Source of the DNA: Actinoplanes philippinensis
GTDB taxonomy: Bacteria > Actinomycetota > Actinomycetes > Mycobacteriales > Micromonosporaceae
NCBI RefSeq assembly: GCF_900113015.1
Contig: NZ_FONV01000011.1
Coordinates: 1-64,000 of the forward strand
Direction of reading: 5' to 3'
Length of the DNA: 64,000 nucleotides
Made by a program: the position numbers and the translations under genes. The notes below the pieces were generated by a model, which saw only the letters and a program-made list of their open reading frames with translations, was not told where the DNA came from and ran no database searches. Below, piece after piece: positions 13,362-16,245 of the stretch (position 1 is the stretch's first letter; each line of letters opens with the position of its first letter).

Positions 13362-14357
13362 ATGACGATCACCGAGGCGCCGCCCGTCACCCGCCCGGCC
13401 GGGCGCCGACGCATGGTGTGGACCGGTCTGGTCTGGGTGTCCCTGGTCCCGGTGGCGATCTGGCTGGTGGCGCGGACGCTCGGGTGGTCGGCCGGCTTCT
13501 GGGTGCAGTTGCTGGCCTTCACGCCGTACGTCGCGGTCTGGTCGTTGGTCTCCGTTCTCGCCGCGCTGGCCACCCGCCGGTGGGCCGCCGCCGCGGTGGC
13601 CGCCGTGATCGCACTGGGCTTCGCGCTGGCGACGGTGCCGCGGGTGATCCCGGACGGCGACAAGGGCCCGTCGACCGGCGTCGAGCTGCGGGTGATGACC
13701 TCGAACATGCTGTTCGGCGGCGCTGACGCCGCGGAGATCGTGCGGCTGGTGCGGGAGAACCAGGTGGACGTCCTGGCTGTGCAGGAGTTCACCGAGAAAG
13801 CGCAGCAGGCGCTCACCGCGGCCGGGTTGGACAGGTTGCTGCCGTTCAACCAGCTGGCGCCGGAGTGGGGTGCGAGCGGCTCCGGTCTGTATTCCCGCTA
13901 CGACTTCGCCGATCAGTCGGCCGACCGTAACGATGGAGAGTTCCAGCAGGCGCATGCGGTGGTGCAGGTGCCGGGTGCCGGGACGGTTTACGTCGAGTCG
14001 GTGCACCCGCTCGCCCCGGCGACCCGGGACATGGTCCCCGGCTGGTCCGCCGACCTGGCCGCTCAGGTGCCGGCCGAGGGTGGTGTGCCCAAGATTCTGA
14101 TGGGCGACTTCAACGCCACGCTCGATCACAAACAGCTGCGCGACTTGATCGACACCGGTTACCACGATGCCGCGGACACGGTCGGGAAGGGCTGGATCCC
14201 CACGTGGGGCCCGTTCGACGGAGATCCGATCCCGCCGGTCACCATCGACCACGTGTTGGCCGATGACCGGATCGGGGTGAAAGATGTCCGGGTGCACAGT
14301 GTGAAGGACTCCGATCACCGCGCGGTGATCGCCTGGCTGACCCTTCCCGCCTCATGA
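13362..14357 (+). CDS. membrane-anchored endonuclease/exonuclease/phosphatase family protein
   Basis: A 331-residue protein with three hydrophobic segments in the first 95 residues (VWTGLVWVSLVPVAIWLVA, VQLLAFTPYVAVWSLVSVL, WAAAAVAAVIALGFALA) and an EEP domain after them. The domain shows MTSNMLFG, VLAVQEF (metal-binding Glu), GDFNATLD and a C-terminal SDHRAVIAWL. The catalytic domain probably faces outside. Related proteins hydrolyse phosphodiesters or phospholipids. The substrate here is open. It overlaps the acetyltransferase gene (ATGA). Confidence 0.85.
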   Translation: MTITEAPPVTRPAGRRRMVWTGLVWVSLVPVAIWLVARTLGWSAGFWVQLLAFTPYVAVWSLVSVLAALATRRWAAAAVAAVIALGFALATVPRVIPDGDKGPSTGVELRVMTSNMLFGGADAAEIVRLVRENQVDVLAVQEFTEKAQQALTAAGLDRLLPFNQLAPEWGASGSGLYSRYDFADQSADRNDGEFQQAHAVVQVPGAGTVYVESVHPLAPATRDMVPGWSADLAAQVPAEGGVPKILMGDFNATLDHKQLRDLIDTGYHDAADTVGKGWIPTWGPFDGDPIPPVTIDHVLADDRIGVKDVRVHSVKDSDHRAVIAWLTLPAS

Positions 14358-14893
14358 GTGACATAGGCATCCGGCTGATCAGTCCCGCCGACGCCGCGGA
14401 GATGGCGGCGCTGCTGCAAGCCAACCGGGAGCATCTGGCGCCGTGGGATCCGCTGCGCGAGGAGAGCTACTACACCACCGAGGGCCAGTGGCAGATCATC
14501 TCCGACTCGCTGCGAGCCGGCAATGCGCTGCCGCACGCGATCGTCCAGGGCGGCCGGATCGTCGGCCGGGTCAACCTGTCGAACGTGGTGCACGGCGCCT
14601 TCCAGTCGGCCAACCTGGGCTACTGGCTGGACGCGTCGGTGGTCGGCCGGGGTGTCGCGAGCGCCGCTGTCGCGGCGGTGGCCGAGGCGGCGTTCCTCAC
14701 TTACGGTCTGCATCGGCTCGAGGCGGGCACACTTCTTCATAACGTACGGTCACAGCGCGTCCTCGAACGCAACGGCTTCGTCCGCTTCGGGATGGCGCCC
14801 AGGTATCTGAAGATCGCCGGGGACTGGCAGGACCACTACCTCTTCCAGCTGCTCTCGGAAAACTGGTTGGCCGCCCGTCCCACCTCCTCGTAA
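14354..14893 (+). CDS. GNAT acetyltransferase, RimJ/RimL type
   Basis: A 179-residue N-acetyltransferase with the acetyl-CoA loop at VVGRGVASAAVAAVAEAAF (about residues 96-114) and the typical ending RLEAGTLLHNVRSQRVLERNGF. The family acetylates N-terminal amines of ribosomal proteins, but many paralogues have other targets. Translation is coupled to the upstream EEP gene. The next feature downstream is the Thr leader peptide, so the two are separate units. Confidence 0.88.
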   Translation: MSDIGIRLISPADAAEMAALLQANREHLAPWDPLREESYYTTEGQWQIISDSLRAGNALPHAIVQGGRIVGRVNLSNVVHGAFQSANLGYWLDASVVGRGVASAAVAAVAEAAFLTYGLHRLEAGTLLHNVRSQRVLERNGFVRFGMAPRYLKIAGDWQDHYLFQLLSENWLAARPTSS

Positions 14894-14903
14894 CATCGCC
14901 GGC

Positions 14904-14966
14904 ATGAGACGCAGCGCGATGACGACGACGCCGGGAGATCCCGGCGACGAGTCGATGCTGCGCTGA
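14904..14966 (+). CDS. threonine-rich leader peptide (attenuator)
   Basis: A 20-codon reading frame 136 bases upstream of the ThrRS paralogue. Codons 7-9 are three consecutive ACG threonine codons (SAMTTTPGDPG). A palindrome (GCCGGGA-GA-TCCCGGC) lies within the frame, and a terminator hairpin follows its stop codon. This is the layout of ribosome-mediated attenuation: stalling at Thr codons when charged tRNA-Thr is scarce would favour read-through. It has no clear ribosome-binding site, so it may be leaderless. Confidence 0.65.
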   Translation: MRRSAMTTTPGDPGDESMLR

Positions 14967-14971
14967 CGAGC

Positions 14972-15011
14972 GACGACCGGCCCCGGGCGACATGCCCGGG
15001 GCTTTGTCGTC
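14972..15011 (+). terminator. attenuator terminator of ThrRS paralogue
   Basis: Core stem GCCCCGGGC/GCCCGGGGC (14980-14988, 14994-15002) runs into TTTG. Outer arms GACGAC (14972-14977) and GTCGTC (15006-15011) extend it. GTCGTC could instead pair with the ACG-rich leader segment near 14918-14930, giving an alternative fold. That alternative is inference. Confidence 0.6.
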
Positions 15012-15039
15012 CGGGGTCCCCGTGTGAAGGAGACCCACG

Positions 15040-16245
15040 ATGTCCATCGATCACCGCCGGCTCGGCCGCGAGCTGAACCTCTTCGACTCCGACCCGCTGA
15101 TCGGCGCGGGCCTGCCGTTCTGGCTGCCCGACGGCGCCGCCGCGCGCCACGAGGTGGAGTCCTATCTGTACGACCTGGAGCGGCGCGCCGGATACCGGCA
15201 CGTGTACTCACCGGCCCTGGGCAAACGCCGGATGTACGAGCTGTCCGGTCATTGGCGCAACTTCGCCGACGACATGTTCCCGCCGATGCGTGTCGGCGAC
15301 GACGAGCTGGTGCTGCGGCCTAGCCTGTGCCCGCATCACGCCCTGATCTTCAAGTCGCGCGGGCGGTCGTACCGGGAACTGCCGTTGCGGATCGCCGAAC
15401 TGGGACCGATGTACCGGGCGGAGCGGTCCGGCGTGGTCGGCGGCCTGTCCCGGGTCCGGCAGATGCTGCTCAACGACGCGCACCTCTTCTGCGCCGAGGA
15501 GCAGGCCGGCGCCGAGGTGGCCGGGGTGCTGGCGCTGATGCGGCAGGTGCACGCGGCGCTCGGCATGGGCCCGGTCTCCTTCCAGCTGTCGCTGCGCGGC
15601 CCGGGGAAGAAGTACGGCGGGAACGACGACTCGTGGGCGCGGGCCGAGGCTCTGCTGCGCGGGGCGCTGGCCGACGCCGGGGTGGAGTACGTGGCGGTCG
15701 AGGGGGAGGCCGCGTTCTACGGGCCGAAGATCGACGTGCAGGTCGCCGACCCGTCCGGCCGGGAGTGGACCCTCGCGACCGTGCAGATCGACTACCACCA
15801 GCCGGAGCGGTTCGAGCTGGAGTACGTGGACGCGAGCGGCGGACGGAGCCGGCCGGTGATGGTGCACCGCAGCCTGGCCGGCTCGATGGAGCGGCTGTTC
15901 GGGCACCTGATCGAGGTGCACGAGGGGGCGTTCCCGGTCTGGTACGCACCGGTCCAGCTGGCGGTCCTGCCGATCGGCGCCGACCAGGACGCGGCCGCCC
16001 GCTCGTTCGCGGACTCGGCGGCCGACCTGCGGGTGGAGGTGGTGCACGACGGCTCGGTCGGCGCGCGCATCCGGGATCACCGCAAGGTCCCGTACCTCGC
16101 GGTGATCGGCGCCCGGGAGGCCGCCGCCGGCGAGGTGGCCCTCCGGCTCCGCGACGGGAGCCGCCTCGACCCGATGCCCCAGGCGGCGGCGATCGACCTG
16201 ATCAAGGCCGCCGCCCGGGAACAGCGGTCAGGAAGCGGGAGCTGA
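15040..16245 (+). CDS. threonyl-tRNA synthetase paralogue lacking TGS and editing domains
   Basis: A 401-residue class II synthetase equivalent to the catalytic plus anticodon-binding part of ThrRS. Full-length enzymes are about 640-690 residues. Motif 2 (RIAELGPMYRAERSG) and motif 3 (VMVHRSLAGSMERLFG) are intact. The zinc ligands of ThrRS appear conserved: Cys in RPSLCPHH, His in NDAHLFC and His in VMVHRS. The C-terminal anticodon domain begins near APVQLAVLPIG. Loss of the N-terminal editing domain means it could not clear Ser-tRNA-Thr. It has a good AAGGAG site and sits behind a Thr-codon attenuator. It could be a stress- or resistance-type second ThrRS. Confidence 0.88.
   Translation: MSIDHRRLGRELNLFDSDPLIGAGLPFWLPDGAAARHEVESYLYDLERRAGYRHVYSPALGKRRMYELSGHWRNFADDMFPPMRVGDDELVLRPSLCPHHALIFKSRGRSYRELPLRIAELGPMYRAERSGVVGGLSRVRQMLLNDAHLFCAEEQAGAEVAGVLALMRQVHAALGMGPVSFQLSLRGPGKKYGGNDDSWARAEALLRGALADAGVEYVAVEGEAAFYGPKIDVQVADPSGREWTLATVQIDYHQPERFELEYVDASGGRSRPVMVHRSLAGSMERLFGHLIEVHEGAFPVWYAPVQLAVLPIGADQDAAARSFADSAADLRVEVVHDGSVGARIRDHRKVPYLAVIGAREAAAGEVALRLRDGSRLDPMPQAAAIDLIKAAAREQRSGSGS

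Follow-up and report, generated by a model that had tools for sequence, protein, structure and literature searches.

In Bacillus subtilis, thrZ encodes a second threonyl-tRNA synthetase (ThrRS) that retains its editing domain and is under the control of a T-box, an RNA that binds tRNA directly without a leader peptide, and the ThrRS of Escherichia coli controls its own synthesis by binding to its own leader RNA. T-boxes in front of B. subtilis thrZ have been noted (PMC2494555). In actinobacteria, attenuators are known for trp, trpS, leuS, and ilv genes, which combine, as at the locus described here, a leader peptide rich in cognate codons with alternative hairpins, and those of leuS and trpS likewise precede synthetase genes; in the accessible part of the same 2005 survey, threonine operons are found to lack conserved upstream RNA structures, and no Shine–Dalgarno strand is described for the trp, trpS, leuS, and ilv attenuators, a sequestor being given there for the T-boxes of ileS (PMC1262725). 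A threonine leader of the present type is already known from Streptomyces lividans TK24, in which thrL (SLIV_19412, MKRVRPFLETTPGFVPAR) precedes thrS (SLIV_19410) (PMC8079986). Like the leaders described below, thrL is leaderless (a start predicted in our case), contains Thr-Thr-Pro (TTP), and has one hairpin, no U-run, and a ThrRS gene next to it; the available portion of that account presents it as a single case from S. lividans, in which the peptide has two Thr residues and termination is unclear, and names no conserved family, Shine–Dalgarno pairing, or missing editing domain (PMC8079986).

Here we describe a TTP leader of the S. lividans layout, with a predicted leaderless start and a ThrRS gene behind it, in Actinoplanes philippinensis. 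The whole stretch of DNA analyzed (64,000 nucleotides of contig NZ_FONV01000011.1, hereafter the window) has a GC content of about 70% (67.5–73.5% across 4-kb blocks). We consider it probable, at somewhat below 0.8, that the leader at 14904–15040 acts as a ribosome-mediated switch that would sense charged tRNA-Thr and control a short ThrRS paralogue, thrS2, a reading drawn from sequence comparison and folding models. So understood, thrS2 would resemble thrZ as a second ThrRS switched by tRNA-Thr charging, but unlike thrZ it has no T-box match at its leader. It would also resemble ThrRS T2 of Anabaena, an inducible second enzyme with impaired proofreading standing beside an accurate one, but T2 is induced by low zinc, and its editing domain is degenerated, not absent (PMC4787780). 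The likeness to thrL is one of leaders: the VPAR ending of thrL (PMC8079986) recurs in class relatives of our leader (TTTPESVPAR). Three other named Streptomyces copies are short (408–409 aa by coordinates).

Results

Anatomy of the leader

The features of the locus are as follows.

14858..14863, + strand: GAAAAC, activator box of the WblC/WhiB7 type, 3 nt 5′ of the −35-like element
14867..14872, + strand: −35-like TTGGCC, 18 nt before the −10 element, read from the sequence
14891..14896, + strand: −10 element TAACAT, 7 nt 5′ of the leader ATG
14904..14966, + strand: leader peptide ORF MRRSAMTTTPGDPGDESMLR, 20 codons, ATG at 14904, stop codon TGA at 14964–14966
14922..14930, + strand: putative regulatory Thr codons ACG ACG ACG, read in the leader frame
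14929..14946, + strand: hairpin H1, CGCCGGG/CCCGGCG, arms 14929–14935 and 14940–14946, region 2 within the 3′ arm
14940..14944, + strand: region 2, CCCGG, in the H1 3′ arm, complementary to region 3
14972–14977 and 15006–15011, + strand: H2 outer helix, GACGAC/GTCGTC, from the fold
14979..15003, + strand: hairpin H2, GC-rich, terminator-like, arms 14979–14988 and 14994–15003, from the fold
14983..14987, + strand: region 3, CCGGG, in the H2 5′ arm, able to pair with region 2
14985..14992, + strand: strand X, GGGCGACA, H2 5′ arm and loop, used in the own-partner pairing score
15005..15012, + strand: strand X′, TGTCGTCC, partner of X, used in the pairing score and in covariation
15014..15036, + strand: hairpin H3, GGGTC (15014–15018)/GACCC (15032–15036), from the fold, beside the Shine–Dalgarno site
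15027..15032, + strand: Shine–Dalgarno site AAGGAG, beside H3
15040..16245, + strand: thrS2, short ThrRS paralogue of 401 aa, class II core and anticodon-binding domain

A sequence-only reading of this DNA had proposed a 20-codon frame with three consecutive ACG codons, an internal palindrome, and a GC-rich hairpin ending in TTTG. All three are present: the frame occupies 14904–14966 with its ACG run at 14922–14930 leading directly into the palindrome, which is H1, and the GC stem of H2 is followed by CTTTG. The spacing of 7 nt between a −10 element of the TAnnnT type and the leader ATG makes a leaderless transcript probable, and translation of this short ORF with its cognate codons is predicted on the same ground. 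The GAAAAC box falls within the 3′ end of an upstream ORF (14354–14893).

The RNA from 14905 to 15039 folds at −80.6 kcal/mol, as against −55.4 ± 3.85 kcal/mol for 200 dinucleotide shuffles (z −6.55). The tail behind H2 in the window reads CTTTGTCGTC and contains no U-run, and a scan of 14750–15100 for the intrinsic terminator pattern (at least five T in eight) returned none, so that H2 does not qualify as a textbook intrinsic terminator; the succession of GC-rich hairpin and U-run that marks the classical trp-type attenuator is not found at this leader, and termination at H2 is therefore uncertain. Since a second layer of control is likely at the Shine–Dalgarno site, the word "attenuator" in the sequence-only reading says too little. 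An Rfam scan of 14300–15300 at E up to 10 gave seven matches, none of them near the gathering score and none to a T-box covariance model, and a known Rfam family was rejected as the explanation.

The short ThrRS and its full-length counterpart

Above the Pfam cut-offs, the thrS2 product matches only the class II core and HGTP_anticodon, with no TGS or editing domain. NCBIfam TIGR00418 (thrS) aligns to it only from position 172 of 565, and hence the N-terminal TGS and editing part is absent, as had been claimed from the sequence alone. Its relatives measure 387–452 aa, and the zinc ligands C97, H148, and H276, the arginines of motifs 2 and 3, and the Tyr and Lys of YGPKI are invariant among them (125/125 distinct loci). 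Assuming for these residues the roles that we take them to have in ThrRS, the product is probably an active ThrRS without proofreading of its own, because none of the catalytic and zinc positions checked has changed. A search of the genome for the full-length thrS, suggested by the same reading, found it elsewhere (C28; TIGR00418 1–562, open frame 683), with no such Thr leader upstream. Among named proteins, those of Actinoplanes italicus and A. xinjiangensis are closest (92%). Among solved structures the best match of thrS2 is the Staphylococcus aureus ThrRS (E 2e-102), ahead of the E. coli enzyme (about 1e-76), and the thrS2 product and the S. aureus enzyme have an LND signature in common, which hints at an origin of the paralogue separate from that of the actinobacterial full-length thrS.

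A second ThrRS copy is also found in ObaO of the obafluorin producer, in which self-resistance goes with a changed Gly463 (PMC11252418). Unlike ObaO, the paralogue keeps this Gly in 125/125 distinct loci and, occurring in at least 94 of 150 Micromonosporaceae genomes, it does not resemble a gene of one product cluster. The suggestion of inhibitor resistance made from the sequence alone is accordingly weak, and a role of thrS2 as an inhibitor-resistant target is not supported; antibiotic stress may act through the WhiB7-type promoter.

Spread and conservation of the leader

With the paralogue as query, the matches in these Micromonosporaceae genomes reach E values of up to 6.8e-111 at an identity of at least 51%, and the weaker matches listed among Micromonosporaceae sit in frames of at least 562 codons; a sample of the class gave matches at E up to 1e-112 in 47 of 296 genomes. 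The collection consists of 30 loci of named genomes, loci from 60 of 93 other Micromonosporaceae and 44 of 45 new class genomes, and the window (n = 135), and a start codon was assignable in 131. A TTP leader precedes 129 of these 131 (125 distinct leaders). One exception, L033, reads Thr-Thr-Ala-Pro; the other, L032, comes from an unrelated MAG and is a thrS of the full-length type, so that 129 of 130 paralogue loci carry the TTP leader. Three of the four loci without an assigned start show the leader as well, and in the fourth (L140) the contig ends after a short upstream stretch.

In all 125 distinct leaders, the third position of the Thr run is ACG and the second is a Thr codon (ACG in 115), and the first position holds a Thr codon in 117 (ACG in 107); the run consists of three Thr in 119 of 128 loci, two in 8, and four in 1. 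ACG makes up 356 of the 377 leader Thr codons, whereas nine genes within the window use it for 72 of their 193 threonines. In 128 of 129 loci, the leader start is preceded at 6–9 nt by a TAnnnT element; where the frame offered several starts, one with this element was taken by preference. H1 is present as CCGG..CCGG in 122 of the 125 distinct leaders, with 2–10 nt between the motifs (6 nt in 62, 8 in 39, 7 in 12, 5 in 4, 4 in 3, 2 in 1, and 10 in 1), and one of the remaining three, L083, has the compensated pair CCAGG/CCTGG. The changes in spacing are often not multiples of three, and the residues after the leader Pro vary. Since H1 is kept where the frame behind it shifts and the spacing varies, it is the RNA that is selected, and the leader is conserved as an RNA rather than as a peptide. 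The ACG triplet and the hairpin, on whose conservation in relatives the sequence-only reading had staked its case, have both been retained.

The leader is thus conserved over the Micromonosporaceae and several further families. The named copies of Streptomycetaceae and Streptosporangiaceae came from plasmid records. There the short thrS with its leader is located on plasmids or plasmid-labelled records (L211–L216) of Streptomyces, Kitasatospora, Streptantibioticus, and Nonomuraea; plasmid rows of Mycobacterium, Listeria, Klebsiella, and other genera were listed as well, the comparison covering L211–L216.

Genes behind the leader

Searched with a covariance model built on the leader, the genome yielded a single clear match, the window (E 2e-15), which is itself a row of the model. 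The next-best match (E 0.005) falls inside L210, which was rejected as a second target because no such leader is present there. In 394 class genomes, 63 strong matches were obtained (E up to 2.3e-8): 59 before a short-type thrS, three before a full-length thrS, and one at a contig edge, the 59 comprising 29 of 30 fetched loci, 6 of a further set, and 24 assigned by places adjoining the paralogue or lying up to about 230 nt upstream of it. The leader therefore belongs to ThrRS genes, 62 of the 63 matches preceding one, and within the genomes sampled the gene is usually the short paralogue. The genomes with the full-length gene behind the same Thr leader are G388, G501, and G524 (L193, L196, and L197); Pfam tRNA_SAD is found in all three of these thrS products and TGS in one, just below the cut-off, and besides the full-length thrS these genomes have no second paralogue match at E up to 1e-30. 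The leader hence does stand before an editing-less ThrRS, as the sequence-only reading had it, but it is not peculiar to such paralogues.

On reading, none of nine weak class matches (L201–L209) proved to be a Thr leader: two lie beside a tRNA-like gene, two are aromatic leaders, and five are other hairpins. The aromatic leaders, L203 and L208, contain codons for Trp, Phe, and Tyr (VRNALRWGFYGQPGSRVTVDPALR; MQRKFWRFYGYRPLGRTVARLALR) and are accompanied by a GC hairpin whose tail is rich in T; the gene behind them we take, from its protein sequence, to be DAHP-synthase-like.

Alternative pairings

In many relatives X reads GGGGCGAGTG, and the complementary strand X′ (CACTCGCCCC) lies just 5′ of the Shine–Dalgarno site. 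X was placed by sequence pattern in 101 of 129 loci because the first hairpin finder had misplaced H2 (e.g., in the window, L004, L016, and L139). In the window, X:X′ amounts to only eight pairs, and H3 encloses the Shine–Dalgarno site only partly. With 72 sequences, RNAalifold recovered H1 and a portion of H2 and nothing more, and the covariation term was close to nil. Alignment A1 contains 72 of 106 non-redundant segments, chosen by hand, and, as the downstream part aligns poorly among the 72, pairs were counted on the better aligned subsets A2 (34 rows, leaving out L134 and L143 of 33 non-redundant class rows) and A3 (36 rows, A2 with L134 and L143 added).

On A2, 93.2% of the X:X′ cells are paired (slid controls, 36–63%) and 14 cells are changed on both sides, as against 5.4 in shuffles (0/500 as high); on A3, the corresponding values are 90.8% (slid controls, 36–64%) and 15 versus 6.5 (0/500), the rows being related and the shuffle statistics ignoring kinship. 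Further pair types are not above the shuffles (9 vs 9.1 on A2, 9 vs 9.7 on A3), and X:X′ pairs changed on both sides number 4 versus 2.4 on A3, a value reached by 38 of 500 shuffles. For H1, H2, and H3 together, 7 pairs are changed on both sides versus 2.7 on A2 (0/500), and the shuffles of A3 gave an expectation of 3.0 (3/500). A permutation test, which leaves every sequence intact and swaps partners, scored X:X′ with own partners at 20.94 versus 17.93 ± 0.25 permuted (maximum, 18.5 in 300 permutations; 98 distinct loci). Own partners also scored above all 300 permutations in the class set (36; 23.75 vs 22.16) and in the Micromonosporaceae (62; 19.31 vs 16.92).

The Shine–Dalgarno region and the strand preceding it score 16.9 versus 14.77 ± 0.22 permuted (125 distinct loci), and in the helix between X′ and the Shine–Dalgarno flank three pairs have changed on both sides. 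X′ can thus pair either with X or with the Shine–Dalgarno flank, and both pairings covary. In related Streptomyces plasmid copies, X and X′ have changed together (GGGGCAAGTG, CACTTGCTCC); the Shine–Dalgarno flank follows this change in two of three copies (GCAAGGAGACC), and the pair is kept by wobble in the third (L213).

Regions 2 and 3 were examined in partial transcripts ending before the H2 3′ arm, in which masking of the H1 5′ arm mimics a stalled ribosome. The 2:3 pairing forms in 113 of 118 masked transcripts; without masking it forms in 37 of 118, and with shuffled spacers in 118 of 590. It is near-invariant, one of its five pairs being unpaired in 5 rows with no compensatory change, and is without covariation support because it hardly varies. 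In full-length folds of three sequences, H2 forms whether masked or not and X:X′ in none, so that the proposed switch would have to be kinetic.

Promoter and the WblC/WhiB7 regulon

We take thrS2 of Streptomyces coelicolor to be SCO3778, and L190, encoded on the same contig as the leader and one of six WhiB matches, to be a WhiB protein by its RGRPR-hook signature. In a study of ethanol-stressed cells, SCO3778 is called a threonyl-tRNA synthetase and is reported to have a sigma-E site (PMC10771440). The WblC promoters of S. coelicolor carry GAAAWY 3 nt upstream of the −35 element, and thrS2 is among the WblC-activated genes (PMC7157823 Table 1). The GAAAAC of the window agrees with this regulon in motif, in spacing to the −35, and in its TAnnnT −10 element, and TTGGCC fits the TKGMNN consensus only partly (PMC7157823). 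An exact GAAAWY lies at −31 to −34 of the −10 element in 39 of 128 loci (37 of 124 distinct; background, 9 in 39,300 positions) and is absent from that place in the other 89. Leaders are also listed before an alaS and a trpS gene of S. lividans (PMC8079986 Table 4), and alaS2 and trpS of S. coelicolor are reported to be WblC-activated (PMC7157823). By analogy, and going by the gene names in the two species, WhiB7-controlled synthetases may more widely carry cognate leaders.

Discussion

The pairings described above suggest the following course of events. Transcription would start at or next to the leader ATG from the WhiB7-type promoter. With ample Thr-tRNA, the ribosome would reach the leader stop codon and H2 would form, whereupon transcription would stop or, at least, X would stay occupied, leaving X′ free to pair with the Shine–Dalgarno flank in H3. 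When charging of tRNA-Thr falls, we infer that the ribosome would stall on the ACG codons and cover the 5′ arm of H1, and the freed region 2 (CCCGG) would pair with the 5′ arm of H2 (CCGGG) before the 3′ arm of H2 is made. With H2 prevented, transcription would read through, X would pair with X′, and the ribosome-binding site would open, inducing the synthetase.

How much of this control would be exerted on transcription depends on H2. U-poor terminators are held to function in actinobacteria, some relatives have T-richer tails behind H2 (L009, L014, and L069), and H2 is very stable and GC-rich, beyond the apparent need of a hairpin that would only hold X away from X′ while X′ masks the Shine–Dalgarno flank until stalling. 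Purely translational control of this kind is therefore unlikely in our estimation, although it would account for the missing U-run after H2 and for the location of the covariation in X:X′, H2, and H3, and although S. lividans thrL, too, has one hairpin and no U-rich stretch (PMC8079986). It is improbable to a still higher degree that the leader senses slow translation in general, as caused by antibiotics at the WblC leader or ermC, and not Thr-tRNA specifically. Such a sensor would fit the WblC/WhiB7-type box and the listing of thrS2 as WblC-activated (PMC7157823 Table 1), but the Thr codons directly preceding H1 hardly vary, in contrast to the remainder of the peptide, and the gene behind the strong matches is a ThrRS in all but the one at a contig edge.

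An operator of the E. coli type, to which ThrRS2 would bind with the small ORF being incidental, has its precedent in the autoregulation of the E. coli ThrRS (PMC2965389). We hold it to be highly improbable here, because no Rfam match comes near the gathering score, 128 of 129 loci have a probably leaderless start in whose frame the Thr codons lie, and in three genomes a full-length ThrRS gene stands behind the same leader; the T-box and operator models were both set aside for want of a match and because the Thr codons stand in frame. Chance, with a commonplace hairpin of GC-rich DNA following the upstream gene and a small ORF without meaning, we regard as a practically negligible possibility. 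A GC content of about 70% and CCGGG palindromes do make hairpins easy, and the model finds weak matches elsewhere in the genome (next best, E 0.005), but the conservation over the Micromonosporaceae and several families argues strongly against chance, as do the fold energy (z −6.55) and the single clear match in the genome at 2e-15, even with the window being a row of the model.

The ribosome-mediated switch sensing charged tRNA-Thr thus remains our preferred reading. Beyond the known type of leader represented by thrL, the present analysis adds a conserved family without an Rfam match, a third covarying pairing, the link to the promoter, and the occurrence of the leader on the only thrS, one with an editing domain, in three genomes. 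The literature searched, mostly papers outside subscription, yielded no description of the Shine–Dalgarno pairing or of a conserved family of thrS leaders.

As to physiology, we tentatively envisage a stress switch with two keys, a possibility to which we give less than even odds. WhiB7 would open the promoter under translation stress, and the leader would pass on the message, with an open ribosome-binding site, only when charged tRNA-Thr is short. The product, a proofreading-free ThrRS, would restore Thr-tRNA quickly at the price of some misincorporation of Ser for Thr, unless the full-length enzyme edits in trans.

What has been a single annotation in S. lividans is now extended to a conserved RNA family with a testable structure in several actinomycete families. 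The leader brings together work on the control of synthetases by leader peptides and work on the WhiB7 antibiotic-stress regulon, which are treated separately in the accounts examined, as far as their accessible text goes. It thereby becomes testable whether cells deliberately deploy a proofreading-free ThrRS when Thr-tRNA is short.
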